Source: Haloterrigena salifodinae (GTDB lineage Archaea; Halobacteriota; Halobacteria; Halobacteriales; Natrialbaceae). From it: a stretch of 64,000 nt of DNA. Location: contig NZ_RQWN01000001.1 of assembly GCF_003977755.1 (NCBI RefSeq), forward strand, positions 124,001 through 188,000. The letters are read 5' to 3'. Numbering within the stretch: the first letter of the stretch is position 1; the number at the start of each line of letters is the position of its first letter. Position numbers and translations under genes: made by a program. Positions 2,277-63,487 of the stretch are shown in pieces. The notes beneath the pieces were generated by a model. The model was given only the letters and a program-made list of their open reading frames with translations. It did not search any database and was not told where the DNA came from.

Positions 2277-3227
2277 TCAACGCAACCCGAGCGTCGCGGC
2301 CACCTGATCCCAGAGGCCGTCGCCGACGTCGGCGACCGCCGCCAGCTCGTCATTCGAGAGTTCGAAGTCGAAGATGTCGGCGTTCGCTTCGATGTGCTCG
2401 CGGCTCGAGGCCTTCGGAATCGCGGCCACGTTGGGCTGCTGGACGAGCCAGCGCAGCGCGACCTGCGACGCCGACTTGTCGGAGGGCTCGCCGATCTCGG
2501 CGAGTCGGTCGTCGCCCGGAACGGTCCCCTCCGCGAGCGGGCTATACGCCGTCAGGCAAACGTCGTGATCGACGCAGTACTCGAGCAGGTCGTCCTGGTG
2601 GTGGTACGGGTGGTACTTCACCTGGTTCGCGACGATCGGCGTCTCGGACAGTTCGAGGGCCGACTCGAGTTGCTCCACCGAGAAGTTGCTGACGCCGATA
2701 TGATCGACGGCGCCCTCCGTCTGCAGGTCGTTCATCGCGGCCAGCGTTTCCTCAAGGGGCGCGCGGTCGCTTGGTGCGTGGAGCAAGAGGAGATCGACCG
2801 CCTCGAGTCCGAGTCGCTCGAGGCTCTCGCGGGTCGATTCGATGACGTCGTCGCGCGCGGCGTTGTCGGGGTGGACCTTGGTGACGACGAAGACGTCCTC
2901 GCGGCTCACGTGTCGCTTCTCGCTCGCGGTTTCACCGCTCGCATTCCCGGGATCCTCGCGTTGCTCGGCTCCCGACGCTCCCGCTCGCTTCTCCGAGGAC
3001 TCACTGCGTTCGTCCTCACAGCCGATGCCGCTAGCGGCGAGGGCCTCGCCGACGGCGCGCTCGTTGTCGTACATCTGGGCGGTGTCGATGTGTCGGTAAC
3101 CGACCTCGAGGGCGGTCTCGACGGCCCGCCGGCACTCGTCGCCGGTCATTCTGGCGGTGCCGAATCCGAGCGCCGGAATCTCGGCGTTCCCTGCGGTAAC
3201 GGTCGCTGTCGAGACGGTTTCGCGCAT
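2277..3227 (-). CDS. Aldo/keto reductase with an internal low-complexity insertion
   Basis: An AKR-family NAD(P)H oxidoreductase of 316 residues, about 35 longer than the AKR at 62645-63487. Catalytic features: GYRHIDTA with Asp48, Tyr53 (AQMYDNE), Lys117 (VVTKV) and the His in LLLLHAP. SNFSVEQLE, the NQVKYHP strand and C-terminal IPKASS (cofactor phosphate binding) are present. ATG 3227 (MRETV) is chosen because the family starts here; ATG 3257 would add ten atypical residues. Residues about 70-106 are a hydrophilic Glu/Ser/Arg/Ala insert between helix 2 and strand 3, absent in the second AKR of this window. Its DNA (about 2910-3020) contains palindromic repeat sequence. The insert falls in a surface loop, so the enzyme is probably still active. 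Substrate unknown. Confidence 0.9.
   Translation of the reverse strand: MRETVSTATVTAGNAEIPALGFGTARMTGDECRRAVETALEVGYRHIDTAQMYDNERAVGEALAASGIGCEDERSESSEKRAGASGAEQREDPGNASGETASEKRHVSREDVFVVTKVHPDNAARDDVIESTRESLERLGLEAVDLLLLHAPSDRAPLEETLAAMNDLQTEGAVDHIGVSNFSVEQLESALELSETPIVANQVKYHPYHHQDDLLEYCVDHDVCLTAYSPLAEGTVPGDDRLAEIGEPSDKSASQVALRWLVQQPNVAAIPKASSREHIEANADIFDFELSNDELAAVADVGDGLWDQVAATLGLR
2910..3020 (-). repeat. Palindromic element inserted in frame inside the aldo/keto reductase gene
   Basis: This stretch encodes the extra residues 70-106 of the reductase. It contains a 6-bp perfect stem, GAGGAC (2995-3000) and GTCCTC (3012-3017), around the loop TCACTGCGTTC. It also carries CGCTCGC-type repeats and CCCGGGATCC-like palindromic sequence. 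The stem-loop layout matches one of the hairpins between dnaK and dnaJ (GGAAGGC, TCACTGCCGTCC, GCCTTCC at 29486-29511), so both appear to be the same family of short interspersed element. Its boundaries are inferred from the protein alignment with the second reductase. Confidence 0.55.
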
Positions 3228-32873: not shown

Positions 32874-32882
32874 ACAGTATTT
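32874..32882 (+). promoter_or_regulatory. TATA-like box of the XPB helicase gene
   Basis: CAGTATTTG centred about 30 nt before GTG 32908. It overlaps the alternative TTG start at 32881, which is therefore unlikely to be used. Confidence 0.45.
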
Positions 32883-32907
32883 GGTCGTTCGGCCGCGAGT
32901 AGGGACC

Positions 32908-34368
32908 GTGACGCGGCCCCAGAACGACCGTCCGGAGTCACCGCCGATCGCGCTCCGGTACGAGGACGGCACCGTCCGGATCGACGACCTCGAGAGCGAC
33001 GCCCTCGACGCCGTCCGCGAGGCGGTCCCCGACCTCGCGGCCGATCCGCGCACCGACGGGCGGCGCGTTCCCGCGTTTCGCTACGCCGACCTTCGGGCTG
33101 CCCTGGTGGACGCGACCGCGGACGCCGACCGAATCGACGACCGAGTGCTGGAACTCGAGTCCCTTCCGGACCTCCACTCGGCGTACGAACTCCGCGAGTA
33201 TCAACACGAGGCGCTGTCGGCGTGGCTCGAGACGGACCGCTGGCGCGATGGCCTCGGATCCGGGGCCGGACCGGCCCCGGAACGAGCGCCCGCAGGCGTC
33301 CTCGAACTCCCGACGGGCAGCGGCAAGACGGTCATCGCGTTGAAGGCGATCGAGCGCCTCTCGGTGCCGACGCTCGTCGTCGTGCCGACGATCGACCTCC
33401 TCGAGCAGTGGCAGCGCGAACTCGAGCGGGAGTTTCGGTGTCCGATCGGACGCTTCGGCGGAGGCGAGCAGCGCCTCGAGCCGATCACGGTCTCGACGTA
33501 CGACTCGGCATACCTGAAGGCCGACTCGGTCGGCGACCGCTTCGGACTGGTCGTCTTCGACGAGGTCCACCACCTCGGAGGCGAGGGCTACCGCGAGATC
33601 GGGCGCCTGCTCGCGGCGCCCGCCCGCCTCGGACTCACGGCGACGTTCGAACGCCCCGACGGCGCCCACGAGGTGATCGCGGAGATCGTCGGGCCGCTCG
33701 TCCACCGCGTCGGGGCCGACGAACTGGCGGGCGACCACCTGGCGAACTACGATATCAAGCGCCTCGCGGTGTCGCTGACACCCGACGAGCGCGAGGCCTA
33801 CGAGCGCAACCAGGAGGTGTTCACCGACTACCTCGCCCGATCGGGGATCGAGATGCGCAGCGGCTCGGACTATCAGGAACTGGTCAAGCGGTCGGGATCG
33901 GATCCCGAGGCCCGCGAGGCCCTGCTCGCTCGCCAGCGCGCACGGGAGCTTATGTTCGGCAGCGCGGCCAAACTCGAGGCCCTCGAGGGGATCCTCGACG
34001 ACCACCGCGGCGAGCGGACGATCGTCTTCACGGCCCACAACGACCTCGCGTACGACGTCAGCGAACGATTTCTGATACCGACGATCACCCACCAGACCGG
34101 CGCCGCCGAGCGACGGGAGATCTTAGAGCGCTTTCGGGAGGGGACCTACACCCGGATCGCGACCTCGAACGTCTTGGACGAGGGGGTCGACGTCCCCGAC
34201 GCGTCGGTCGCGGTGGTGCTCTCGGGTAGCGGCAGCGAGCGGGAGTTCACCCAGCGACTCGGTCGAATTCTCCGTCCGAAAACCGACGGCGGTCGTGCAC
34301 TCCTTTACGAAGTCGTCGCCGAGAACACGGGCGAGGAACGCATCGCGGGCCGGCGTCGCGACCGCTGA
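32908..34368 (+). CDS. rad25: XPB/Rad25-family DNA helicase
   Basis: A 486-residue superfamily 2 helicase. The N-terminal part (about 1-90) is the small damage-recognition-like domain. Motif I ELPTGSGKT, motif II VVFDEVHHL (DEVH), motif III LGLTATFERPDG, motif V TSNVLDEGVDVPDAS and motif VI QRLGRILRP are complete. The acidic RED-type segment (TFERPDGAHE) follows motif III. In archaea XPB acts with the nuclease Bax1; here the Bax1/DUF790 gene is at 45354, about 11 kb away. GTG 32908 is chosen from the TATA position. Confidence 0.93.
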   Translation: MTRPQNDRPESPPIALRYEDGTVRIDDLESDALDAVREAVPDLAADPRTDGRRVPAFRYADLRAALVDATADADRIDDRVLELESLPDLHSAYELREYQHEALSAWLETDRWRDGLGSGAGPAPERAPAGVLELPTGSGKTVIALKAIERLSVPTLVVVPTIDLLEQWQRELEREFRCPIGRFGGGEQRLEPITVSTYDSAYLKADSVGDRFGLVVFDEVHHLGGEGYREIGRLLAAPARLGLTATFERPDGAHEVIAEIVGPLVHRVGADELAGDHLANYDIKRLAVSLTPDEREAYERNQEVFTDYLARSGIEMRSGSDYQELVKRSGSDPEAREALLARQRARELMFGSAAKLEALEGILDDHRGERTIVFTAHNDLAYDVSERFLIPTITHQTGAAERREILERFREGTYTRIATSNVLDEGVDVPDASVAVVLSGSGSEREFTQRLGRILRPKTDGGRALLYEVVAENTGEERIAGRRRDR

Positions 34369-34534
34369 TTCCGATCGCACTCCGCCCGATTTCGATGACC
34401 GAGACGTGCTCGCTGACCGGCAGGTATCAGCAGCGTCTTCGGCGTCGACGGAGCTTCTGCGTCGACGAAGCGCGAACGTAGCACCGGCGCCGAACTGCGA
34501 CGCTCATTTCTCCGCCTCGTGATAGGTCGACAAC
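34369..34534. other. Intergenic sequence after XPB
   Basis: No gene is seen. Sequence from here to 34997 has decayed coding character and merges with the two fossils described next. Confidence 0.35.
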
Positions 34535-34640
34535 ATGATCCGGATCGGGATTCAACTGTACACGCTACGAGACCGACGACGCGCTGTCGATTGAACTCGA
34601 CGTCTGTTGGGCGACCGCGGCGGGGCACGGACGCTCGCAG
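34535..34640 (+). pseudogene. Sugar-phosphate isomerase/epimerase fossil, copy A
   Basis: ATG 34535 encodes MIRIGIQLYTLRDRR, the typical N-terminus of xylose-isomerase-like TIM-barrel sugar phosphate isomerases, then a stop at 34592. In another frame the sequence continues as DDALSIELDVCWATAAGHG, which belongs near residue 170 of the family. So most of the gene has been deleted and the frame lost. The second part closely matches DDSLLIELDVGWAAAAGHD at about 41070-41130 (copy B). Confidence 0.65.
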
Positions 34641-34654
34641 CGGTTCGCGATCGG

Positions 34655-34935
34655 TCTTCGGGGCACGCGACGGCTCGCTCAACAGCATGCGCGCCCACTC
34701 GCTCGTCCGCACGCCGTTCGTCACGGGATCGGACAGTCCGTAGACGACTAGCAGCGCGGCCGCGCAGTGGACCCGGTGGACCAGTTGCGGCGCGACCAGT
34801 TCGACGATCGGACCGCCGATCACCGCGAGGACGAGCCCGGCGACGGTGACGAGGACGAATTATCGGTAGGCCGTCACGGACGCCTTGAGCGAGCGGAGAT
34901 ACAGGAACTCGAGGGCGACGATCGGACCGCCTCAA
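34655..34935 (-). pseudogene. Membrane winged-helix protein fossil, copy A
   Basis: The minus strand matches the gene at 41447-42028 over its central part: GGPIVELVAPQLVH, AALLVVYGL, DPVTN.VRT.EW. The frame shifts upstream of the GGPIVEL segment, and the C-terminal winged-helix region is missing. The DNA match extends from about 34660 to 34930 against 41720 to 41980. It faces the isomerase fossil just as in copy B. Confidence 0.7.
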
Positions 34936-34965
34936 TGCGGGCGCGAACCGGCGATGCATGCTGAT

Positions 34966-34974
34966 TGTTTACCT
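34966..34974 (+). promoter_or_regulatory. TATA box before the 52-aa membrane peptide
   Basis: TGTTTACCT centred about 28 nt before ATG 34998, predicting a leaderless transcript that begins with the small gene and runs into the permease. Confidence 0.55.
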
Positions 34975-34997
34975 ATCCCTGGGTTGAATAGCTAACA

Positions 34998-35156
34998 ATG
35001 GTTTCGACGCTGGTACTCGGAGCCGTCCTCACGCTGCTGGCGTGGGTGTGGCTCCAGCTCGCCGTTCTTCACGGAAAATACGTCGTCGATAAGATCGCCG
35101 CGGGCGAGTACCGGAAGGGGCCTCTGGACCGACCCGACGGAGAGGAGTCGCCATGA
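34998..35156 (+). CDS. Small single-span membrane protein coupled to the APC permease
   Basis: A 52-residue protein: MVSTLVLGAVLTLLAWVWLQ gives one transmembrane helix, followed by a short polar tail (HGKYVVDKIAAGEYRKGPL...). Its stop codon overlaps the permease start as ATGA (35153-35156), so the two are translationally coupled. A purine-rich GGAGAGGAG within its last codons can serve as ribosome-binding site for the permease. A TATA box sits 28 nt upstream. The tight coupling suggests a small subunit or regulator of the transporter; this is inference. Confidence 0.7.
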   Translation: MVSTLVLGAVLTLLAWVWLQLAVLHGKYVVDKIAAGEYRKGPLDRPDGEESP

Positions 35157-37603
35157 GCGAGGCCGAAGGGCTGCCGGGACACGAGCACGATGAGGAACTG
35201 GCGCGCGACATGTCACTGTTCGACATCACAATGATCGGCGTCGGGGCGATGATCGGCGCCGGCATCTTCGTACTCACGGGACTAGCCGCGGGACAGGCGG
35301 GCCCGGGTCTCGTGATGGCCTTCGCGTTCAACGGCTTCATCACGATCTTTACGGGGATGGTGTACGCCGAACTGGGATCTGCGATCCCGGAGGCCGGCGG
35401 CGGGTACCTCTGGGTCCGGGAAGCGCTCGGCCGATCACAGGCGTTCCTTGCGGGGTGGATGTCGTGGTTCGCCCACGCCGTCGCGGGATCGCTGTACACC
35501 CTCGGATTCGGCGCCTTCGTCCACCTGCTCCTGACCGACTACTTCGGCATCCCGCTCTTCGAGCCGATCGACTTGGCCGTGCTCGCGATCGGTCCGGAAA
35601 AGGTGTTTGCCGCGTTCGCCGGCGTCCTGTTCGCGTACATCAACTACCGGGGGGCGAAGGAGACCGGCCTCGCCGGGAACGTCGTTACACTCGTCAAGAT
35701 CACCGTCATCCTCGTACTCATCGCGTTTGGCCTCGGGTACATCGTCGGTCACCCGGCCGAGGCGAGCGGTCGGTTTCGCCCGTTTCTTCCCCGGGATTTT
35801 AGCGGCATCTTCATCGCGATGGGGCTAACGTTCATCGCCTTCGAGGGGTACGAGATCATCGTCCAGTCCGGCGAGGAGGTCGTCGAGCCGAAGAAGTCGG
35901 TTCCGAAGGCGGTCTTCTACTCGATGTCGATTGTCGTTACGATCTACATGCTCGTAGCGATCGTGCTCATCGGTGCGGTGTCGGTGACGCCCGGGCTGTT
36001 CGAACTGGCCCAGGAGGGCGCCGCCTCCGGCGGGCACGGTGCGACCAACCTGCCGCCGGTTCCGGCGAATATCGAGGACGCGGCCGTCTGGGAGATCCTC
36101 GGGCATCTCGGCGAGTTCGGTCTCGCGCGGGCCGCCGGACAGATCATGCCGTACGGGACGGTGGTCATCCTCGTGGCCGGTATCTTCTCGACGTTGTCGG
36201 CGCTGAACGCGACGACCTACTCCTCGACGCGTGTGTCGTTCGCGATGGGGCGGGACCACGTTCTTCCGGACGCATTCGGATCGGTCCATCCCGAGAAACA
36301 GACGCCCCACGTCGCGACGGCGCTCTCCGGGGCGCTCATCATCTTCATGGCCGTCGTGCTACCGATCGAGGCCGTGGCGGCAGCGACGGACGTGATGTTC
36401 CTTCTGCTCTTCTTACAGGTGAACTACGCCGCGATCGTGATCCGCCGCGAGTGGGGCGATCAGATCGACTACGGTTACGTGATGCCGTACTTCCCCTACG
36501 TCCCGATCATCGGCATCCTCACGAAACTCGCCCTGGCCGTCTACCTGTTCAACTACAGTCCGCTGGCGTGGTACGGCGCGCTCGCGTGGATCCTCGTCGG
36601 CGTCGGCATCTTTTTCCTGTACTCCCGCGGCCGCGTCCGCGAGACGGAAGCCAGGGAAGAAACGCGATTCATCACCGAGGAACGCGCGCCGGTGGATCGC
36701 GAGTATCAGGTGCTTGTTCCCCTCGCAGACCCGAGTAACGCCGAGCAACTGATCCGCGCGGGAAGCGCGATCGCTCGCCGCGAAGACGGAGAACTCCTTC
36801 TGACGAGCGTCGCAACGGTACCCGACCAGACGCCGCTCTCAGAAGGTCGCCGCTACGCGGACGAGCAGGGAGCGCTCCTCGACAACGTGCTGGAATACAT
36901 TCCCGACGACGTCCCCGCCCACCGGACCGTGACGATCGGCCACGACGTCGGAACGAGTATCAACAACGTAGCCTATCAGCGCGATAGCGATCTCGTCGTC
37001 ATGGGCTGGCGGGGGAGACGCAAACGATTCTCGGACTACGCGCTCGGTTCCAACATCGACACCGTCGTCGAGAACGGACCGTGTGACGTCGCCGTAATGA
37101 AGACCAACGGAGCGCCGGCATCGAGCCGTGTTCTCGTGCCCACGGCCGGCGGACCCCACGCGGACCTCGCGGAACGGTTCGCGATCGCGTACGCGGATAT
37201 CGGTGCCGACGTTACGCTCTTTCACGCCGTCACCGACGGCGATGCCGACGCCGCCGAGTCGCACCTCCGCGAGCGAAAGGAGGCGTTGGCCGACGCCGGT
37301 ATCGACGTTGACATCGATACCGCGATCGCAGAGCGTGACGAGATCGACGACGCGATCCTCGAATACGCCCGCGACGGTGGGTTCGACACGATCGTCATCG
37401 GAGCGGCCGGTGAGGGCATCCTCCAGCGCGTCCTGTTCGGCGAGATCCCGGAAACGATCGGCGAGGAGTTCGACGGAACGGTCGTCATGACGCGGAAGCA
37501 CCGCCCTGTCCAGTCGTCCCTGAAACGGGTCGTTCGGAAGTGGGTCGGAAAGGGCGCGCGAGCGACTGATATCGGACCGTCGCCGTCGCGCTCCGACGAC
37601 TGA
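35153..37603 (+). CDS. APC-superfamily amino acid permease with tandem C-terminal UspA domains
   Basis: An 816-residue fusion. Residues about 20-490 hold 12-13 membrane helices with APC hallmarks (GVGAMIGAGIFVLTGLAAG in helix 1, FAFNGFITIFTGMVYAELG in helix 2, GLTFIAFEGYEII in helix 6). The remaining 320 residues carry two UspA-like cytosolic modules: first about 510-645 (REYQVLVPLADPSNAEQL, VVMGWRGRRKRFSDYALGSN), second about 650-795 (SRVLVPTAGGPHADLAERF, DTIVIGAAGEGILQRVLFGEIP, with a nucleotide-loop-like GxxGxG pattern). The UspA units probably sense nucleotides such as ATP or c-di-AMP and control transport; that is inference from family knowledge. It starts inside the upstream small gene. 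Confidence 0.92.
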   Translation: MSEAEGLPGHEHDEELARDMSLFDITMIGVGAMIGAGIFVLTGLAAGQAGPGLVMAFAFNGFITIFTGMVYAELGSAIPEAGGGYLWVREALGRSQAFLAGWMSWFAHAVAGSLYTLGFGAFVHLLLTDYFGIPLFEPIDLAVLAIGPEKVFAAFAGVLFAYINYRGAKETGLAGNVVTLVKITVILVLIAFGLGYIVGHPAEASGRFRPFLPRDFSGIFIAMGLTFIAFEGYEIIVQSGEEVVEPKKSVPKAVFYSMSIVVTIYMLVAIVLIGAVSVTPGLFELAQEGAASGGHGATNLPPVPANIEDAAVWEILGHLGEFGLARAAGQIMPYGTVVILVAGIFSTLSALNATTYSSTRVSFAMGRDHVLPDAFGSVHPEKQTPHVATALSGALIIFMAVVLPIEAVAAATDVMFLLLFLQVNYAAIVIRREWGDQIDYGYVMPYFPYVPIIGILTKLALAVYLFNYSPLAWYGALAWILVGVGIFFLYSRGRVRETEAREETRFITEERAPVDREYQVLVPLADPSNAEQLIRAGSAIARREDGELLLTSVATVPDQTPLSEGRRYADEQGALLDNVLEYIPDDVPAHRTVTIGHDVGTSINNVAYQRDSDLVVMGWRGRRKRFSDYALGSNIDTVVENGPCDVAVMKTNGAPASSRVLVPTAGGPHADLAERFAIAYADIGADVTLFHAVTDGDADAAESHLRERKEALADAGIDVDIDTAIAERDEIDDAILEYARDGGFDTIVIGAAGEGILQRVLFGEIPETIGEEFDGTVVMTRKHRPVQSSLKRVVRKWVGKGARATDIGPSPSRSDD

Positions 37604-37637
37604 CTCCGCCGTGCCGTTTCGGTGTCTCCGCCGACCG

Positions 37638-38972
37638 TCAGTCGCCCATCTGCGCGTGGGTCGGCTGTTCACCGCCGCCGCTCTCGGAGGGACTCGAGCG
37701 GTGGAGCCAGTAGAGGATGGCGAAGACGGCGGTAGCGAAGACGTTCAGCACCATCTTGTAGTTGAGTTCGATCGAGACCTCCGCGACGGTCGCGCTCGAG
37801 CGTGGGGGGATCAGTCCCAGTCCCGCGAACAGGAAGTGGACGACGACGCCGACGACGACCGCAGAGACGAAGATCATCGCCGAGAGGACGGCGGCGAACG
37901 TCGTCCCGTAGTACTCCCGGTAGGCGTCGACGATCGGCGGGACGATCAGGTCGGCGTAGATGTACGCGAGGACGCTCCCGAACGGCAGGCCGTTCGTGAA
38001 GAGGACGGCCGCGAAGGGGACGTTTCCGACCGAGCAGACGAACGTGGCGACGCCGATGATCGCGCCCAGTGCGGACGTCCAGACGACGTACGTCGGCATC
38101 CCGAGGATCGGTCCCGAGAAGACCGAGGTCCAGACCGAGCGAGGGATGAAGCCGGCGATGAGGCCGGCGAAGACGAACCCGATAGCGATCTCGTCCCAGA
38201 GCATCCCCCACTCCTTCCACTGCTTGTCAGCTAGCGCTTCCCAGCCCGAGAGCGAGGTGGCCTGCTCGCGGATCGTCGTGTTCGCTTCGTCGGGATCGAA
38301 GCTCTCCATGCACGACTGCGAGCAGAAGTAGTAGGTCTCGCCGTCTACCTCGGTGGAGTAGTCGGTCTCCTCGGGATTCACTTCCATCCCGCAGACCGGG
38401 TCCTGCGCGGTCGGCTCGCCCTCTTCGCGGACGTTCTCGCGCGCCCGCTCGATGATACCGTCGGGGACGACGTAGATGAACCCGAGCGCCATCAGCCCGA
38501 TGAGCAGGAAGCCGCCGATGACGTCAGCGGCCAGGAACTGCCACCCGAGCAGGAGCACGATGACCGCGCCGATCTCGATGACGAGGTTCGTCGACGCGAA
38601 CATGAACGCACCAAGCGACGCCGCCGCTGACGCCCCCTTCTTGAAGAGGTTCTTCGCGGTGGCGATGGCGCTGTAGGAACACGACGAGGAGACGAAGCCG
38701 AACAGCGACCCGTAGCCGATCTCGCGCGGGCCGTGACCCTCGAGCAGGTCCGAGACGGCCTCCGTCGACGTCCAGGCCTCCACGCCGCCGGCGATGGCGA
38801 AGCCGATGACCAGCGCCCACCACGTGATCCACGCCATGGCGACCGTCGTCGAGACGAACTCGCGCGTTCCCGCGACAAAGAACTGCGCGAGCGGTTTCGA
38901 CGTCGTGACGATGCCGATGCCGATCACCGCGATCGCGACGAGCATCAAGATCGGGTACTCCTCTCGATCCAT
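37638..38972 (-). CDS. DUF318-type permease with internal YHS domain
   Basis: A roughly 444-residue membrane protein. Two blocks of four helices flank a cytosolic loop. The family motif SSSCSYSAIATAKNLFKKGAS is near residue 95, with a matching FVCSVGNVPFAAVLF in the second half. The loop (about 195-235) contains a YHS metal-binding domain (DPVCGMEV, YYFCSQSCMESF). DUF318 permeases include organoarsenical exporters; the YHS module suggests a metal or metalloid ligand. ATG 38972 (MDREEY) is chosen because the TATA box is centred 24 nt before it; ATG 38978 two codons earlier is the alternative. Confidence 0.88.
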   Translation of the reverse strand: MDREEYPILMLVAIAVIGIGIVTTSKPLAQFFVAGTREFVSTTVAMAWITWWALVIGFAIAGGVEAWTSTEAVSDLLEGHGPREIGYGSLFGFVSSSCSYSAIATAKNLFKKGASAAASLGAFMFASTNLVIEIGAVIVLLLGWQFLAADVIGGFLLIGLMALGFIYVVPDGIIERARENVREEGEPTAQDPVCGMEVNPEETDYSTEVDGETYYFCSQSCMESFDPDEANTTIREQATSLSGWEALADKQWKEWGMLWDEIAIGFVFAGLIAGFIPRSVWTSVFSGPILGMPTYVVWTSALGAIIGVATFVCSVGNVPFAAVLFTNGLPFGSVLAYIYADLIVPPIVDAYREYYGTTFAAVLSAMIFVSAVVVGVVVHFLFAGLGLIPPRSSATVAEVSIELNYKMVLNVFATAVFAILYWLHRSSPSESGGGEQPTHAQMGD

Positions 38973-38992
38973 GTTCATCCCTAGGCGATGCG

Positions 38993-39000
38993 TATTTAAC
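38993..39000 (-). promoter_or_regulatory. TATA box of the DUF318 permease gene
   Basis: GTTAAATA on the minus strand, 24 nt from ATG 38972 and 18 nt from ATG 38978, favouring the former for a leaderless transcript. Confidence 0.5.
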
Positions 39001-39533
39001 GGGGTTCGGACTAACGAATCGCGGATCGAACACCGGTTCCGCTTTGGTTCGATAACCGGTTCTCGTTCGGGCGTCGATCGGTACCGCCGGCTCGCGGGCG
39101 ATTTCCCGTCGAAGCCGAACCGTCGCGCCTCTCGCTCGAGCGCGAGGCGGGGACCGTCACTCTCAGGGCCACCGTCTTTCAGTCAGCCTGATAGCTGGTC
39201 CGGTATGCAAAGCGACCGGCCACCGATTCTTTTCTGGGCAAAGTCTGTGGATGTGTGCCCGACCGAGCCGGTCACCAGCGACGATCCCCTCGAGCAGCCA
39301 GACCAGCGATCCGCGCGTCCCTCGAGCATCCGATCGACGGACGCTGTCACCGACGCCGTCGCTCTGGTTAGCGACTGACTCGAGCGCGACCCCTGGCCCC
39401 GCTCCCGCCGGAGCGGGCCGACTATCCGACGAGCGACCCGACCGTCGACGGCGCCTCGGGCGCCAACATCGACGTGATCGACGTGCTGTGAGCCCTCGGC
39501 TGGCGCGACGTCGGCAATCCGGGGTCGCCGGCA
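39001..39533. other. Intergenic region with decayed sequence
   Basis: About 530 nt with no supported gene. A short frame 39205-39378 (57 residues) lacks recognisable motifs. At 39420-39490 a protein-like run in plus orientation (DYPTSDPTVDGASGANIDVI) ends in a stop. A hairpin with 8-bp arms CCCGCTCC/GGAGCGGG (39398-39405/39410-39417) precedes it. The region appears to hold eroded gene fragments. Confidence 0.4.
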
Positions 39534-39590
39534 GTCGTCGCCGAGAACACCGGCGAGGGATGGATCGCGAGACGGCGCCGTGATCGACGG
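39534..39590 (+). pseudogene. Fossil of an XPB helicase C-terminus
   Basis: The plus strand reads VVAENTGEGWIARRRRDR, against VVAENTGEERIAGRRRDR at the very end of the XPB gene (34312-34365). The DNA matches at most positions, including silent ones, but the stop codon is lost and nothing of the helicase precedes it. It is short, so chance cannot be wholly excluded. Confidence 0.45.
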
Positions 39591-39612
39591 TCAGAGAGGA
39601 CGGAGAATACGT

Positions 39613-39774
39613 TCAGTCCGAAACCGAGCGGGGCTGTACTCGTTCGTGGTGGGAGGCGAGATAGCGGGCGACCTCGCGCTGGGTGTGGGAGCCGATGAGG
39701 TGCATCTCGAGCGTCTGGTCCAGTTCCAGCGTTTCCTGACAGAGCGGACACTCGACCGGCGGTTCGTATGGCAT
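39613..39774 (-). CDS. Small C2H2-type zinc finger protein
   Basis: A 53-residue protein from ATG 39774 (MPYEPPVECPLC). One finger, CPLCQETLELDQTLEMHLIGSH, has C-x2-C spacing then H-x4-H. A short helical tail follows (TQREVARYLASHHERVQ). Single C2H2 proteins of this size are common in haloarchaea and may regulate motility or biofilm traits, but this one is unassigned. The alternative ATG at 39834 would add 20 residues without family support. Confidence 0.75.
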   Translation of the reverse strand: MPYEPPVECPLCQETLELDQTLEMHLIGSHTQREVARYLASHHERVQPRSVSD

Positions 39775-39944
39775 TTGCTTACTCTCCGTCCGTCCGAGAC
39801 AAATCGATATAGCATGCATACGCTCGTCCCTCATCCGTTTCGGACGACACGCCGACGGAGCCGCTCGAGCGATACGGCATCAATCCGTCTTTATCGCTCG
39901 GTTTCGGCCGAAACGGCGCGAGCGGTTTCGAACTCGTCCGTCGC

Positions 39945-40820
39945 TCACCGCTGGATACCGAGCGTTTTCTGGATGATCTGGCGTGACGCCATCGAACAGA
40001 GGAAGTACCAGACGATCCACGTCGACATCGGTCCGACGAGGGACTGCTGCCAAGTGACGTGACCCGCTAATGGGACGACTAACCCCATCTGGCCGGCGCC
40101 GAGATGGCCGCCGTTGACCTTCCAGCGGAGCCAGAGGAACACGGGAATCGTCACCAGCATCACCCACACCGTCGGGCGGAACTTGACCTTCAACAGCCCG
40201 AGTTGATCGCCGGCGGCCTCCCGTTGTTCCTGTCGGATCTGCTCGAGAGCCTCGTCGTCGCCACGTTCTTCGGCCGCTTGCTTTCGGTTCTGTAACGCCT
40301 CCATCCGCTGGGTGTACTGTTGGATCTTCTCGTGGTCGGTCAGCCGAGACTGCAACACGGTCGAATAGAGGCCCGTGGCGATCGAGAGCAGCACGATGAT
40401 CCCGTAGAAGGGAATGATCTCGGTAATCGGTCCGAGAACGACGCTTTCGGTCGACGCGACGACGTCTCGGAGCTGCGGGCTCCAGTACCCCGCAAACAAC
40501 GCGACTGCGGTCGCTCCCGCGGCCTTATCCAGTGCCAACCAGCGGTACGGTTCGATCGTCTCGCGGTTCGAACTCGGGCGTCGGTCGTCCGTTTCGAGTC
40601 GGGCACGAACCCCCTCGGGTTCGGCGACCGTGAACCCGGCGCCGGCGCTGACGAGTACCTCCTGTTCGATGAGTCGGCCCCACTGCGCACTCGAGAGCGC
40701 ATCGCTGACGTCGCTCCACTCGAGTTCCTCCCTGCCGTCGTTAGACCGTTCCAGAATCACCGAGATGGCCTCCTGCATCGAGGGGTCGGTGAGGAGCATC
40801 TCCAGCTGTTCCGTGGGCAT
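39945..40820 (-). CDS. DUF106/EMC3-TMCO1-family membrane protein
   Basis: A 291-residue protein. Residues 1-80 form a small helical, possibly winged domain (SVILERSNDGREELEWSDV). Then come a transmembrane helix (IIPFYGIIVLLSIATGLYSTVLQ), a cytosolic coiled coil with KIQQYTQRMEALQNRKQAAEE, and two or more C-terminal helices (VWVMLVTIPVFLWLRWKV, WIVWYFLCSMASRQIIQK). This is the Oxa1-superfamily pattern of archaeal DUF106, proposed to assist membrane protein insertion. Archaeal DUF106 genes often sit near secY; this one does not, so it may be a paralogue. Confidence 0.85.
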   Translation of the reverse strand: MPTEQLEMLLTDPSMQEAISVILERSNDGREELEWSDVSDALSSAQWGRLIEQEVLVSAGAGFTVAEPEGVRARLETDDRRPSSNRETIEPYRWLALDKAAGATAVALFAGYWSPQLRDVVASTESVVLGPITEIIPFYGIIVLLSIATGLYSTVLQSRLTDHEKIQQYTQRMEALQNRKQAAEERGDDEALEQIRQEQREAAGDQLGLLKVKFRPTVWVMLVTIPVFLWLRWKVNGGHLGAGQMGLVVPLAGHVTWQQSLVGPMSTWIVWYFLCSMASRQIIQKTLGIQR

Positions 40821-40979
40821 TCGTTACCGGACACTCTTTTCCTGCGAATTCATCAATTCTTCTCCCTCAATTGGCAGGAAACGCCAACGAGAAGCGACAT
40901 CCGTTCAGCCGGTCGAACGAGCGTCCGATACCGCCGTTACTCTCCGAGTACACAGCCGACGGCGAACGATGATGTTCTT
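40821..40979. other. Intergenic spacer
   Basis: About 160 nt between the DUF106 gene and the isomerase fossil. Locally AT-richer; nothing identifiable. Confidence 0.4.
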
Positions 40980-41360
40980 CCCCCGCGTGATACATCACAC
41001 AACCACGACCACGAGTTCGCTCCGCTCGAGGGCGACGATCGGTGCGCGTTCGAATTCCTGCTCGACGAGACCGACGACTCCCTGCTGATCGAACTCGACG
41101 TCGGCTGGGCGGCCGCGGCCGGTCACGATCCGACCGCGTTACTCGAGCGACTCGAGAGTCGGAGCCCGCTGGTCCTCCTCAAGGACGTGGCCGACGGCCG
41201 TCCAGTCGAACTCGGTGATGGCGAGGTCGATACCGACGCGTGCGCGGCGGCCGCCCGCGATGCCGGTGCCGAGTGGCTGCTCTACGAACACGACGAACCG
41301 TCCGATCCCGTCGCCTCGCTCGGATACGGTGCGCGGGCGCTCGCGGAACGTCGCGAGTGA
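40980..41360 (+). pseudogene. Sugar-phosphate isomerase/epimerase fossil, copy B (C-terminal half)
   Basis: An open frame ending at 41360 reads HNHDHEFAPLEGDDRCAFE, LLIELDVGWAAAAGHDPTAL, VLLKDVADGRPVELGDGEVD and AEWLLYEHDEPSDPVASLGYGA, in the order found in the C-terminal half of xylose-isomerase-like sugar phosphate isomerases, including the metal-binding His-Asp-Glu pattern. The N-terminal half is absent and there is no good start codon, so it cannot be a working enzyme. It faces the winged-helix gene, the same order as copy A. Confidence 0.75.
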
Positions 41361-41446
41361 CCGCGATTGATCGGGAGTGAGTTTCGGGATAGGCGGCGCG
41401 TTGCTTGCCGGGCGGCTCAACGCCGAACCGGTGTCTGGCGGACGAC

Positions 41447-42028
41447 TCAACCCCGAACCCCGGTTTCGGCGTCCGCCGACGCGGTCGCCCGAAGTTGTCC
41501 CCGGAGATACCGCTCGCCGCGCCGCGTCAGCCGATACTTGCCCCGTTCGACCTTTTCGACGAATCCGTGGTCCGCGAGTTCGATTAGGCGCCGGTTCACT
41601 TCCTTCCGGCTGAACCCGGTGTTGAAGGCGACGACCGCCGGCGTCAACACGAGGTCCGTGCCGTGAAGCGCACCGAGGATCTCGTCGTCCATCGGCGTCA
41701 TCCACTCGGCCGGCCGCCGGAGCTGCGACGGTTCGCTCAATAGCACGCGCTCCCACTCCGTCGTCCGCACGTCGTTCGTCACGGGATCGTAGAGACCGTA
41801 GACGACCAGCAACGCGGCCGCGCCGTGAACCCAGTGGACCAGTTGCGGCGCGACCAACTCGACGATCGGGCCGCCGATCACGGCCAGCACCAGTCCGGCG
41901 ACGGTGACGAGGACGAACCGACGGTACGCCGTCACCGACTCCTCGAGCGAGAGGAGGAACAGGAGCTCGAGGGCGACGACGACGCCGATCGCCAGGTTGT
42001 AGCCGATGACGGGGGTCAGTCCGTCCAC
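41447..42028 (-). CDS. Membrane-anchored winged-helix regulator
   Basis: A 193-residue protein. Three N-terminal helices (about residues 8-30, 38-58, 65-82, with LAVIGGPIVELVAPQLVHWVHGAAALLVVYGLYDP) precede a C-terminal winged helix (DEILGALHGTDLVLTPAVVAFNTGFSRKEVNRRLIELADHGFVEKVERGKYRLTRRGERYL pattern, about 110-175). It looks like a membrane-tethered transcription factor responding to a membrane signal. Its start lies 13 nt inside the preceding 105-residue membrane gene, so the two form a unit. A degraded copy occurs at 34655-34935. Confidence 0.8.
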   Translation of the reverse strand: MDGLTPVIGYNLAIGVVVALELLFLLSLEESVTAYRRFVLVTVAGLVLAVIGGPIVELVAPQLVHWVHGAAALLVVYGLYDPVTNDVRTTEWERVLLSEPSQLRRPAEWMTPMDDEILGALHGTDLVLTPAVVAFNTGFSRKEVNRRLIELADHGFVEKVERGKYRLTRRGERYLRGQLRATASADAETGVRG

Positions 42029-42333
42029 GCGGCCTCACCTCCCGATCGCTCGCGGCGGAGCTGTCGGTGGCGGAGTATCAGCAGGCCGATGAAGATCGCG
42101 ACGATCGTGTTCGCCGCGCTCCGGAGAACGTCCAGAACCGGCGACGCCGGCTCGACGACGAGCAACATCGTGTGGTAGATCGTCAGCGCGGCCATCCCGA
42201 CCGAGAGGAGCGCGATCGCCGTACCGAAGGGCGAGTCTCGAAAGATGCCCCAGGACAGGAGCGCGAACACCCCGGCGCCGGTGCCGGCGATGATCGCGAA
42301 CGGAATGCCGAGAAGGTGGACGGAACGGATCAC
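42016..42333 (-). CDS. Three-helix membrane protein paired with the winged-helix regulator
   Basis: A 105-residue protein from GTG 42333 (read as MIRSVHLLG). Three hydrophobic helices: about 7-27 (GIPFAIIAGTGAGVFALLSW), 35-58 (TAIALLSVGMAALTIYHTMLLVV), 65-85 (VLDVLRSAANTIVAIFIGLLIL). The tail RHRQLRRERS is basic and cytosolic. The stop overlaps the next gene by 13 nt. A TATA box 29 nt before GTG 42333 supports this start. Such small membrane genes next to winged-helix genes recur in haloarchaea; a sensor role is inferred. Confidence 0.72.
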   Translation of the reverse strand: MIRSVHLLGIPFAIIAGTGAGVFALLSWGIFRDSPFGTAIALLSVGMAALTIYHTMLLVVEPASPVLDVLRSAANTIVAIFIGLLILRHRQLRRERSGGEAAWTD

Positions 42334-42358
42334 ACCGCGGACTTCAGTTTCGGTAGTC

Positions 42359-42365
42359 GTTAAGC
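42359..42365 (-). promoter_or_regulatory. TATA-like box for the membrane/winged-helix pair
   Basis: GCTTAAC on the minus strand, centred 29 nt before GTG 42333; it decides between this start and longer in-frame options. Confidence 0.45.
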
Positions 42366-42609
42366 TGCGGCATGGTATTTCATCGGTGTGTTGACCGGGT
42401 AGGGAGACCCCGACGCTGGGCGATAACGGCCAGAAGCAGCGCAGTGGTCCCGTCGAATCCGTCATTAGAGCCCTAGTAATCGTCCGTGAACCGCCCCTCA
42501 CCGATCGGCTATCCCTCGGTTCCCACCGCGAGTATCGCGCCTCACCGTTCGGTCGGATCGCGGTGGCCTGTGGATAACAAAGCCGGTCGCCGGCGACCGT
42601 TCGATCGCA

Positions 42610-42963
42610 ATGGCACTGACTCAAATCGACCACGTCAGCGAGAACGAGGAGATGCAGGAGTGTATCGACAACTGCTTCGAAGCCGCCCAAGCGTGCGAGT
42701 GGTGTGCCGACGAGTGCGCCGGCGAGGGCGAGGAGATGGCCGACTGTCTCCGACTCTGTCGCGACGTCGCCGACCTGACGACGATGCACGCCCGGTTCAT
42801 GGCTCGGAACTCGAACTACAGCGCGGAGCTCGCCGAAGCCTGCGCCGGCGCCTGCGAGGAGTGCGCCGAGGAGTGCGAACGCCATGACGACGACCACTGT
42901 CAGGTCTGTGCGGACGCCCTCCGCGACTGCGCGGAGACCTGCCGAAACATGGCGACGGCCTGA
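42610..42963 (+). CDS. DUF326-family cysteine-rich four-helix bundle (copper-binding type)
   Basis: A 117-residue cytosolic protein with 14 or more Cys in CxxC or CxxxC patterns along helices (CIDNCFEAAQACEWCADEC, CLRLCRD, CAGACEECAEECERH, CQVCADALRDCAETCR). This is the DUF326/Csp layout, where cysteines line a four-helix tube that stores Cu(I). Copper storage is family inference. A TATA-like GGATAACA lies about 32 nt before ATG 42610. The neighbouring SPW gene follows on the same strand. Confidence 0.92.
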   Translation: MALTQIDHVSENEEMQECIDNCFEAAQACEWCADECAGEGEEMADCLRLCRDVADLTTMHARFMARNSNYSAELAEACAGACEECAEECERHDDDHCQVCADALRDCAETCRNMATA

Positions 42964-43035
42964 TCGGGACGGCCACGGTCTCAATCGGGAGCTGCGAGCG
43001 CCGACCGCCGTTCATCGAGCCACGAACTCGGATTC

Positions 43036-43407
43036 ATGTACGCGACCGCAAAACTGACCGCCAGCGGAAACGGGATACTCGGCTGCTGGCTGATCGCGGC
43101 GCCGTTCGTCCTCGGTGCGCCGGCGATCGGTCGCTGGAACGACGTCGTCGTCGGCGCAGTCGTACTGCTCGTCGTCGGTTACAACCGCGTCGGGACCACC
43201 GGACGCCATCCCGCGAGCGCGACCGGTGCGGGGCTCGTCGCGACTCTCGGGCTCTGGCTCCTTCTCGCCCCGTTCGTCCTCGGCTTCGAGGGACTGCCGC
43301 TGTGGAACGACGTCATCGCGGGAACCGTCGTTGCGAGCTTCGGCAGCTACGACGCGTACGTTTCGGCGGTCGGTCGAGAACGGTCCGTTCGCACACCCGT
43401 CGAATAG
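43036..43407 (+). CDS. SPW repeat membrane protein
   Basis: A 123-residue protein with four hydrophobic helices arranged as two repeats. Each contains the (W)L(I/L)(A)APFVLG ... WNDV signature (residues about 17-45 and 75-105), characteristic of SPW repeat proteins. Function unknown; they are small bacterial and haloarchaeal membrane proteins. It lies 72 nt after the copper-binding protein on the same strand; a link is not shown. Confidence 0.85.
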   Translation: MYATAKLTASGNGILGCWLIAAPFVLGAPAIGRWNDVVVGAVVLLVVGYNRVGTTGRHPASATGAGLVATLGLWLLLAPFVLGFEGLPLWNDVIAGTVVASFGSYDAYVSAVGRERSVRTPVE

Positions 43408-45353: not shown

Positions 45354-46940
45354 ATGCTGACCAAGGACCTGCTCCGTGTCTCGCGGGCCGGAGGCGGCTA
45401 CCACCTCCAGTTCGCCGACCGGGAGCACCGTCCACTCGCCGCCCGCGTGATCGGCACGTACCAGGGCCATGTCGGCGAATCCCGCGCGGAACTCGAGGAG
45501 GCCCTGACCGAACTCGAGCGCGGCGCGGACGACTTCAAGCTCGTCAGGGGGCTGTCGGCGCTGCTCGAGCGCGACGCGACGTTCGAGACCGACGCCGAGA
45601 TCGACCCCGAACGAGCGCGCCGGGCCGCCTTCGAGGCCGCCGAAGCGGTCGGCGTCGTGAGTGAGGACGAGCGCGCCGTGGCCCTCGATCGCGCCAGCGA
45701 GTCGTTCGGCGTCTCGACCGACACCGTCGCGGGGGCGCTGTACGCCGACCTCGAGGAGCGACAGGTCCTCGCCGAACTGGCCGCGCGGTGGGAACCCGAC
45801 GAGCTGGTGGCCCAGTACAACCTTTCGCTGGCCCAGACCGCGCTCTTCGACGCCACCGAACTCCGGGTCCGCTCGAGCGATCCGAAGGCGCTCGTTTCGG
45901 CGATCAAGCGACTGCGACTGATGTACGAGATCCGGCGGCTCGAGGACGAGGACGGCGGTAACGCCTCCGATAGCGCCGTCGCCGAGCGTGAGGTGGTCGT
46001 CACCGGGCCGACCCACCTCTTCCGGGCGACTCGCCGGTACGGCACTCGGTTCGCCCGCCTCCTCCGAACGGTCGCGAAGGCCAACGAGTGGCGCCTCGAG
46101 GCGACGATCGACGACCGCGGGACCGAACGGACGCTGCGGCTCTCCGACGCGGATCCCGTCCGCGTTCCCGACGCCGAGCCCGTCGCCGAGGTGTCCTTCG
46201 ACAGCGGCGTCGAGGCCGACTTCGCCGCGCGCTTCTCGAACCTGAATCTCGAGTGGGACCTCGTGCGCGAACCCGAACCGCTCGCGACGGGAACGCGGGT
46301 AATGATCCCCGATTTCGCGTTCGATTACCGTCCCGGGGGCAGCGCCCGCAGGGACTCGACTGACGAAGCCGACGGCGGGCACGGCGAGTTCCGCGTCTAC
46401 TTCGAAATTATGGGGTTCTGGACGCCCGAGTACGTCGAGAAGAAACTCGCGCAGCTATCGGACCTCGAGGACGTCGAACTGATCGTCGCCGTCGACAAGT
46501 CCCTCGGCGTTGGCGAGGAGATCGCGGCTCGAGACTTCCGGGCGATCCCCTACTCCGGGAGCGTCCGGCTGAAGGACGTCGCCGGTGTCCTCCGGGAGTA
46601 CGAGCGCCAACTCGTCGCCGAGAGCGCCGCCGCGCTGCCGGACGAACTGTGCCCCGACGAGGACGTGCTCTCCCTCGAGGCGCTGGCCGGCCGACGAGGT
46701 GTCAGCGAGGACGCGCTGGCCGATATCGCGTTTCCGGACCACGTGCGGGTCGGCCGGACGCTCGTCCGGCCGGCCGTCCTCGAGTCGCTGGCGGACGAGA
46801 TCGAGGCCGGGATGGCGCTTTCCGACGCCGAGGAGAGCCTCGAAGCGGCCGGGTTCAGCGACTCGAGTGCGATCCTCTCGGAACTCGGTTATCGCGTCGA
46901 GTGGGAGGGGCTGGCCGGTGGGACGCTCGTCGAGCGGTAG
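45354..46940 (+). CDS. bax1: DUF790 endonuclease (Bax1-type XPB partner)
   Basis: A 528-residue protein. It starts MLTKDLLRVSRAGGGYHLQF, as DUF790 proteins do. The C-terminal nuclease core shows IPDFAF, then YFEIMGFWTPEYVEKKL, the PD-(D/E)xK-like acidic and lysine positions (about residues 318-365). In characterised archaea Bax1 binds XPB to form a helicase-nuclease for bubble DNA in excision repair. XPB is at 32908-34368, away from here, though these genes are commonly adjacent. Coding is intact. ATG 45354 preferred over ATG 45276 because the family starts at MLTKDLL. Confidence 0.93.
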   Translation: MLTKDLLRVSRAGGGYHLQFADREHRPLAARVIGTYQGHVGESRAELEEALTELERGADDFKLVRGLSALLERDATFETDAEIDPERARRAAFEAAEAVGVVSEDERAVALDRASESFGVSTDTVAGALYADLEERQVLAELAARWEPDELVAQYNLSLAQTALFDATELRVRSSDPKALVSAIKRLRLMYEIRRLEDEDGGNASDSAVAEREVVVTGPTHLFRATRRYGTRFARLLRTVAKANEWRLEATIDDRGTERTLRLSDADPVRVPDAEPVAEVSFDSGVEADFAARFSNLNLEWDLVREPEPLATGTRVMIPDFAFDYRPGGSARRDSTDEADGGHGEFRVYFEIMGFWTPEYVEKKLAQLSDLEDVELIVAVDKSLGVGEEIAARDFRAIPYSGSVRLKDVAGVLREYERQLVAESAAALPDELCPDEDVLSLEALAGRRGVSEDALADIAFPDHVRVGRTLVRPAVLESLADEIEAGMALSDAEESLEAAGFSDSSAILSELGYRVEWEGLAGGTLVER

Positions 46941-62644: not shown

Positions 62645-63487
62645 ATGGAAACGGAAGACGCCGAAACTGTTGCGCCCGGAACGTGTCCGACCGCAAACGG
62701 CATTCCGATGCTCGGGTTCGGTACCTGGCAACACGACGATCCGGATCGGTGCGTCGAGAGCGTCCGAACGGCCCTCGAAGCGGGCTACCGCCACATCGAC
62801 ACCGCCCAGGCCTACGAGAACGAGGCGGCCGTCGGCGAGGGTATCGCGGCGGCCGATGTCGATCGCGACGAGGTCTTCCTCGCGACCAAGGTCTGGCGCT
62901 CGAACCTCGCACACGACGACGTCCTCGAGACGGCTCGCGAGAGCATCGACCGGCTCGGCGTCGACTCCCTCGACATGCTGTACATCCACTGGCCGACCGG
63001 CGAGTACGACCCCGAGGGAACGCTGTCGGCGCTCTCGGAGCTGTATGACGAGGGACTGATCGAGAACGTCGGCATCAGCAACTTCCTCCCCGAGCAGGTC
63101 CAGGAGGCCGTCGACGTCTGCGACGCGCCGATCCTGGCCAACCAGGTCGAACTCCATCCGCTGCTCCCCCAGCCTGACCTCCGGGAAGCCTGCGAGAACG
63201 CCGGTGTCGAGGTCGTCGCCTACTCGCCGATCGCCCGCGGCGAGATCTTTGACCAGCCCGAGGTTCAGGACGTCGCGGAGAAACACGGCGTCAGTGAGGC
63301 GCAGGCCAGCCTCGCCTGGCTGCGCGAGAAGGGCGTCACCGCGATTCCGAAGGCGACCGGCGAGGAGCACATCCGCGATAACTGGGCATCCCTGACCCTC
63401 GAGCTGGATCGAGAGGACATCAACAAAATCGATAGTATCGACGAGACGCAGCGGCAGGTCGACCCCAGCTTCGCGCCCTGGAACTGA
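62645..63487 (+). CDS. Aldo/keto reductase
   Basis: A 280-residue AKR. GYRHIDTAQAYENE gives catalytic Asp and Tyr, VFLATKVW the Lys, and MLYIHWPTGEYDPEG the His. NQVELHPLLPQPDL and VTAIPKATGEEHI (cofactor phosphate loop) are present. Length is normal for the family, serving here as reference for the longer paralogue at 2277-3227. Substrate unknown. ATG 62645 (METEDAETV) is used; the frame before it lacks protein character. Confidence 0.92.
   Translation: METEDAETVAPGTCPTANGIPMLGFGTWQHDDPDRCVESVRTALEAGYRHIDTAQAYENEAAVGEGIAAADVDRDEVFLATKVWRSNLAHDDVLETARESIDRLGVDSLDMLYIHWPTGEYDPEGTLSALSELYDEGLIENVGISNFLPEQVQEAVDVCDAPILANQVELHPLLPQPDLREACENAGVEVVAYSPIARGEIFDQPEVQDVAEKHGVSEAQASLAWLREKGVTAIPKATGEEHIRDNWASLTLELDREDINKIDSIDETQRQVDPSFAPWN

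Follow-up and report, generated by a model that had tools for sequence, protein, structure and literature searches.

Haloarchaeal species are known to recombine with each other (review PMC4500145), which allows divergent alleles to replace or join the resident ones via shared flanking genes. The locus analysed here lies in a 64-kb stretch (64,000 nucleotides, referred to as the window) of the Haloterrigena salifodinae genome (4.96 Mb, 11 contigs). It would be alike in this respect, and would differ in that both alleles persist side by side, one of them decayed, with no donor identified. It is located between the genes encoding an XPB-type DNA helicase and Bax1, which are a known functional pair (PMC7293015). 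In several relatives these two genes are adjacent or within ~1 kb of each other; thus, the interval starting at 34371 in the window is a zone of accumulated insertions.

A close counterpart of the locus is found in a congener (G004, locus L055), where an intact isomerase of 245 aa lies after the helicase and faces a membrane winged-helix regulator. This isomerase passes the gathering cut-off of PF01261 (Xylose isomerase-like TIM barrel) with 60.5 bits versus 31.1, over residues 22-240. A convergent isomerase/regulator pair, its genes 58 bp apart, also occurs in another genus (G072), with an uncharacterised gene, here gene X, upstream of the isomerase. The first-pass annotation of the window had proposed that the same two parts are present twice in convergent order, and had suggested looking for an intact locus in related genomes. 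The loci of G004 and G072 bear this out and identify both copies, A and B, as degraded versions of a single genuine locus. The G004 locus shares genes, orientation and spacer with copy A, but differs from the window in being single-copy, with an intact isomerase, no transporter genes and no repeat of the helicase tail. Such a repeat does exist in another genus of the family (G055, locus L208), where a full helicase and an isomerase precede a second, degenerate helicase tail and then a zinc-finger gene, as in the window, although the isomerase is intact and the regulator is missing there. The two helicase tails of G055 (82%) resemble each other more than those of any other genome in the comparison, which indicates that an event of similar form took place there separately and independently.

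Two copies and their decay

BLASTN comparison of copy A with copy B revealed 86% identity over 255 bp of the regulator (34667-34921 versus 41725-41979, E 2e-85) and 84% over 63 bp of the isomerase (34567-34629 versus 41065-41127, E 2e-15), similarity that extends beyond short motifs, the pieces being collinear in order and strand. These matches rank strongest and fourth-strongest among the self-matches of the window. The proposal that A/B likeness is due to chance, or that the isomerase pieces come from unrelated subfamilies, has practically no chance of being right: nothing was found in its favour, and it is refuted by these E-values and by the alignment of both isomerase fragments to one intact gene in G004 and G072. 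The self-search also retrieved a third collinear pair that the first-pass annotation had missed, formed by the helicase 3' end (34311-34364) and a fossil downstream (54 bp, E 2.5e-8; Table 1). Therefore, the repeated unit consists of helicase end, isomerase and regulator rather than of the last two only. An inverted pair of diverged homologous stretches (2620-3116 and 62768-63147, 67-82%) was also observed close to both window ends.

Table 1. Features of the helicase-Bax1 interval, in window coordinates
Feature	Coordinates	Strand	Remarks
XPB-type DNA helicase, intact	32881..34368	+	Pfam ResIII, Helicase_C, ERCC3_RAD25_C, XPB_DRD
Copy A helicase-isomerase spacer	34372..34534	+	75-bp ungapped match to G004 spacer after ~84 extra bp
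Copy A isomerase fossil	34535..34652	+	Block alignment to intact G004 and G072 genes
Copy A regulator fossil, reduced to membrane-segment half	34666..34921	-	Single in-frame TAA; lacks DNA-binding half and first codons
Amino-acid permease fused to UspA domains	35153..37603	+	Between copies
ArsP-type permease with YHS domain	37638..38978	-	Between copies; SO_0444-like Cu/Zn efflux match below cut-off
Helicase 3' end fossil (probable displaced native end)	39533..39586	+	83% to 34311-34364; 82-89% to G002/G003/G005; 73% to copy A over 62 bp
Small zinc-finger-like protein (C2H2 by eye)	39613..39834	-	Directly after helicase in G002/G003/G005
Second EMC3/TMCO1-like membrane protein gene	39945..40820	-	PF01956, 143 bits
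Remnant of gene X 3' end (gene X precedes isomerase in G072)	40881..40965	+	79% over 85 bp; score 79, reached by 0/500 shuffles
Copy B isomerase fossil, C-terminal half	40998..41360	+	First 375 bp deleted
Copy B membrane winged-helix regulator, intact, 193 aa	41447..42028	-	
Rest of conserved cassette: holin-like membrane protein (-), DUF326/Csp1-like Cys-rich protein (+), SPW protein (+)	42016..43407		
Bax1 (DUF790), helicase partner	45354..46937	+	PF05626, 410 bits

Compared with the intact gene, copy A retains isomerase nucleotides 1-32, 443-496 and ~705-734, followed by the membrane half of the regulator. These three islands (start, 34535-34566; middle, 34567-34619; end, 34620-~34650) are joined by deletions of nucleotides 33-442 (410 bp) and ~497-704 (208 bp), the first of which joins a 5-bp repeat, ACGAG, and a third loss of ~320-330 bp runs across the isomerase end and the DNA-binding half of the regulator. 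Copy A has thus suffered at least three internal deletions, besides acquiring one stop codon. The isomerase N-terminus had been recognised beforehand as retained in this copy, which holds for the start of the gene; middle and end islands are kept as well, and the loss exceeds the ~570 bp then estimated. The private changes of the copy A regulator remnant distribute over codon positions 1/2/3 as 7/5/8, i.e. the neutral change expected without selection. An exact 16-bp direct repeat, CGACGATCGGACCGCC, occurs at 34802-34817 and 34916-34931, at the broken end of this remnant.

Copy B was correctly anticipated to hold the C-terminal half of the isomerase and an intact regulator. Part of the upstream spacer is kept, and the sequence then jumps to isomerase nucleotide 376; the His of the conserved VHLKD motif, kept in all intact relatives compared, is replaced by Leu. 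Alone, the copy B isomerase scores 19.2 bits against PF01261, below the cut-off, and copy A consists of islands only, so that the complete barrel is absent from both and both are pseudogenes. Between the copy B regulator and that of G003, 1/1/7 differences fall on codon positions 1/2/3, the pattern of constraint that a functional gene would show.

Flanks, helicase ends and neighbourhood in relatives

The allele types of the two copies were assigned from short decisive stretches of 54-255 bp. The helicase end on the side of copy A is 84% identical to that of G004 and shares with it the position of its in-frame TGA stop, and the helicase tail of copy B is 89/87/82% identical to those of G005/G002/G003, the two ends sharing just 73% over 62 bp. 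Tail comparison and a breakpoint scan against G005 revealed that the last ~70-100 bp of the intact helicase are of the divergent, G004-like type. Against G005, 4 differences in the 262 bp before 34262 are followed by 14 in 103 bp, 11 of them at third positions (Fisher p 1e-5); the drop in identity is abrupt, near 34262-34296, and the scan over the gene places the change at 34296 (permutation p = 0.002). Such a break at the junction within a shared gene is what a recombined-in allele, i.e. a merodiploid state, predicts.

The left flanks are also of two types. The copy A spacer aligns locally to the G004 spacer with a score of 48, reached by 0/500 shuffles, and does not match the end of gene X, whereas 40881-40965 in copy B matches gene X of G072; the helicase tail, zinc-finger gene and gene-X remnant of copy B match G002/G003/G005 and G072. 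The zinc-finger-like protein gave no Pfam match above the cut-off. A diverged copy of the EMC3/TMCO1-like gene is located elsewhere in this genome (G000:C1, ~385 kb), ~72% identical in the best DNA segment.

In G002, G003 and G005 the order is helicase, zinc finger and regulator, without the isomerase. The regulator, holin-like, DUF326/Csp1-like and SPW genes make up a cassette conserved across many family genomes, and in G001 the helicase directly adjoins the gene that flanks the far side of this cassette, the site being therefore empty in that genome. The cassette (42016-43407 in the window) is carried on plasmids in some family genomes. A third fossil was detected on a 397-kb contig of G004 (C2; L062:3208-4642), in which the beginning of gene X runs directly into an internal isomerase segment that reads DALSIELDV, as copy A does; DUF326 and SPW genes come after, and the regulator is missing.

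Regarding the transporter genes between the copies, the permease-UspA fusion has no DNA match in the genus, where a search with the transporter stretch retrieved ArsP-type matches only, and the Usp half and ArsP are contiguous at 86% in a genome of another genus (G021). An ArsP permease also lies beside the regulator and holin-like gene in L068, and an ArsP 3' remnant lies next to SPW in G003, which suggests a metal-handling link of the cassette.

A probable allele import and its alternatives

Since the two versions match different relatives, one of them probably came from another strain through recombination and decayed afterwards. We thus consider it quite probable that one chromosomal locus is present in the window as two tandem alleles, a divergent allele having recombined into the helicase 3' end, with decay of the redundant genes. 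The native order would have been helicase, zinc finger, EMC3, gene X and isomerase facing the regulator, followed by the rest of the cassette. A divergent allele comprising helicase 3' end, isomerase and convergent regulator, in a G004-like arrangement, would have entered the terminal ~100 bp of the helicase gene by homologous recombination, giving this gene a new 3' end and shifting the native end, along with all that followed, ~5.2 kb downstream; the transporter genes may have arrived with the import or later. The genome would so have become diploid for isomerase and regulator. As the two versions were functionally redundant, the imported pair would have decayed by deletions, the first between short repeats, and by point mutations, selection presumably keeping one regulator only; the native isomerase would also have been broken, the native regulator remaining functional. 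On the donor side, the arrangement and helicase end of copy A are G004-like, and no donor close to copy A was found among 125 family genomes, its regulator piece being at most 87% identical to any of them.

The first-pass annotation had explained the two copies by an ancient tandem or segmental duplication followed by complementary decay. The existence of two differently decayed copies of one convergent locus stands, but a duplication is disfavoured by the unlike left flanks, where a simple tandem event predicts common boundary sequences on both copies, and by the phylogeny of the regulator piece, where it predicts copies that are each other's closest relatives: in trees of this 255-bp stretch (255 columns, a test of moderate strength) A and B as sisters are rejected (p-AU 0.029). 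In these trees copy B groups with G002/G003/G005 with support of 86/77, and the placement of copy A inside the genus has support of 52/51, its grouping with G004 being neither rejected nor favoured. An older event, in which the block of helicase end, isomerase and regulator doubled within the genus before the species split, with clean loss of one copy in the other species and with decay of both copies and insertion of transporter genes between them here, would accommodate the three homologous pieces in the same order and strand, the position of copy A near the genus clade and the separate origin in G055 of a similar order of full helicase, isomerase and helicase tail. Nevertheless, this scenario appears rather unlikely to us: left flanks matching different relatives would demand extra deletions that recreate the G004 spacer, and the helicase identity break against G005 also argues against it. 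None of the five congeners carries both copies in the helicase interval either, which is weak evidence, since recombination can remove a tandem copy without trace.

The replaced helicase end and the displacement of the old one by 5.2 kb are also what would be expected of a mobile element integrated at the helicase 3' end as attachment site, the element supplying the new end and the original end marking its far boundary. The variability of the helicase-Bax1 interval in many genomes and the independent helicase-tail repeat that flanks the isomerase segment in G055 (194 bp at 82%) point in the same direction. However, the genes between 34371 and 39533 are the permease-Usp fusion and the ArsP permease, with no integrase; no recognisable integrase was read by eye among the listed ORFs of the helicase-Bax1 intervals in relatives, and the window contains no tRNA, which makes an element of this kind very improbable. 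A scrap in G055 that resembled an integrase by eye gave no Pfam match and was dropped. The helicase of G070, split at its 3' end (L222:8745-9725) by a transposase-like insertion that detaches the last 20 codons, is not comparable to the window. More generally, cassettes entering these haloarchaeal genomes might land repeatedly at the XPB helicase 3' end, substituting the final codons of the gene and pushing the previous ones away. This genome and G055 provide at least two independent cases that would fit, a number too small to establish a landing site, and we regard the proposition as unlikely.

Meaning for haloarchaeal genome history

The import of a divergent allele, as the explanation that we favour, is biology of a known kind; as genome history it is commonplace, although exceptionally easy to read. 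Greater importance would attach to repeated insertion at the helicase 3' end, should further genomes show it. Similar fossil pairs need a comparison of their flanks before they are labelled as duplications. The locus of H. salifodinae, a genuine fossil pair in a good state of preservation, provides a readable record of two allele types in one chromosome, in which the redundancy and the steps of decay are still visible.
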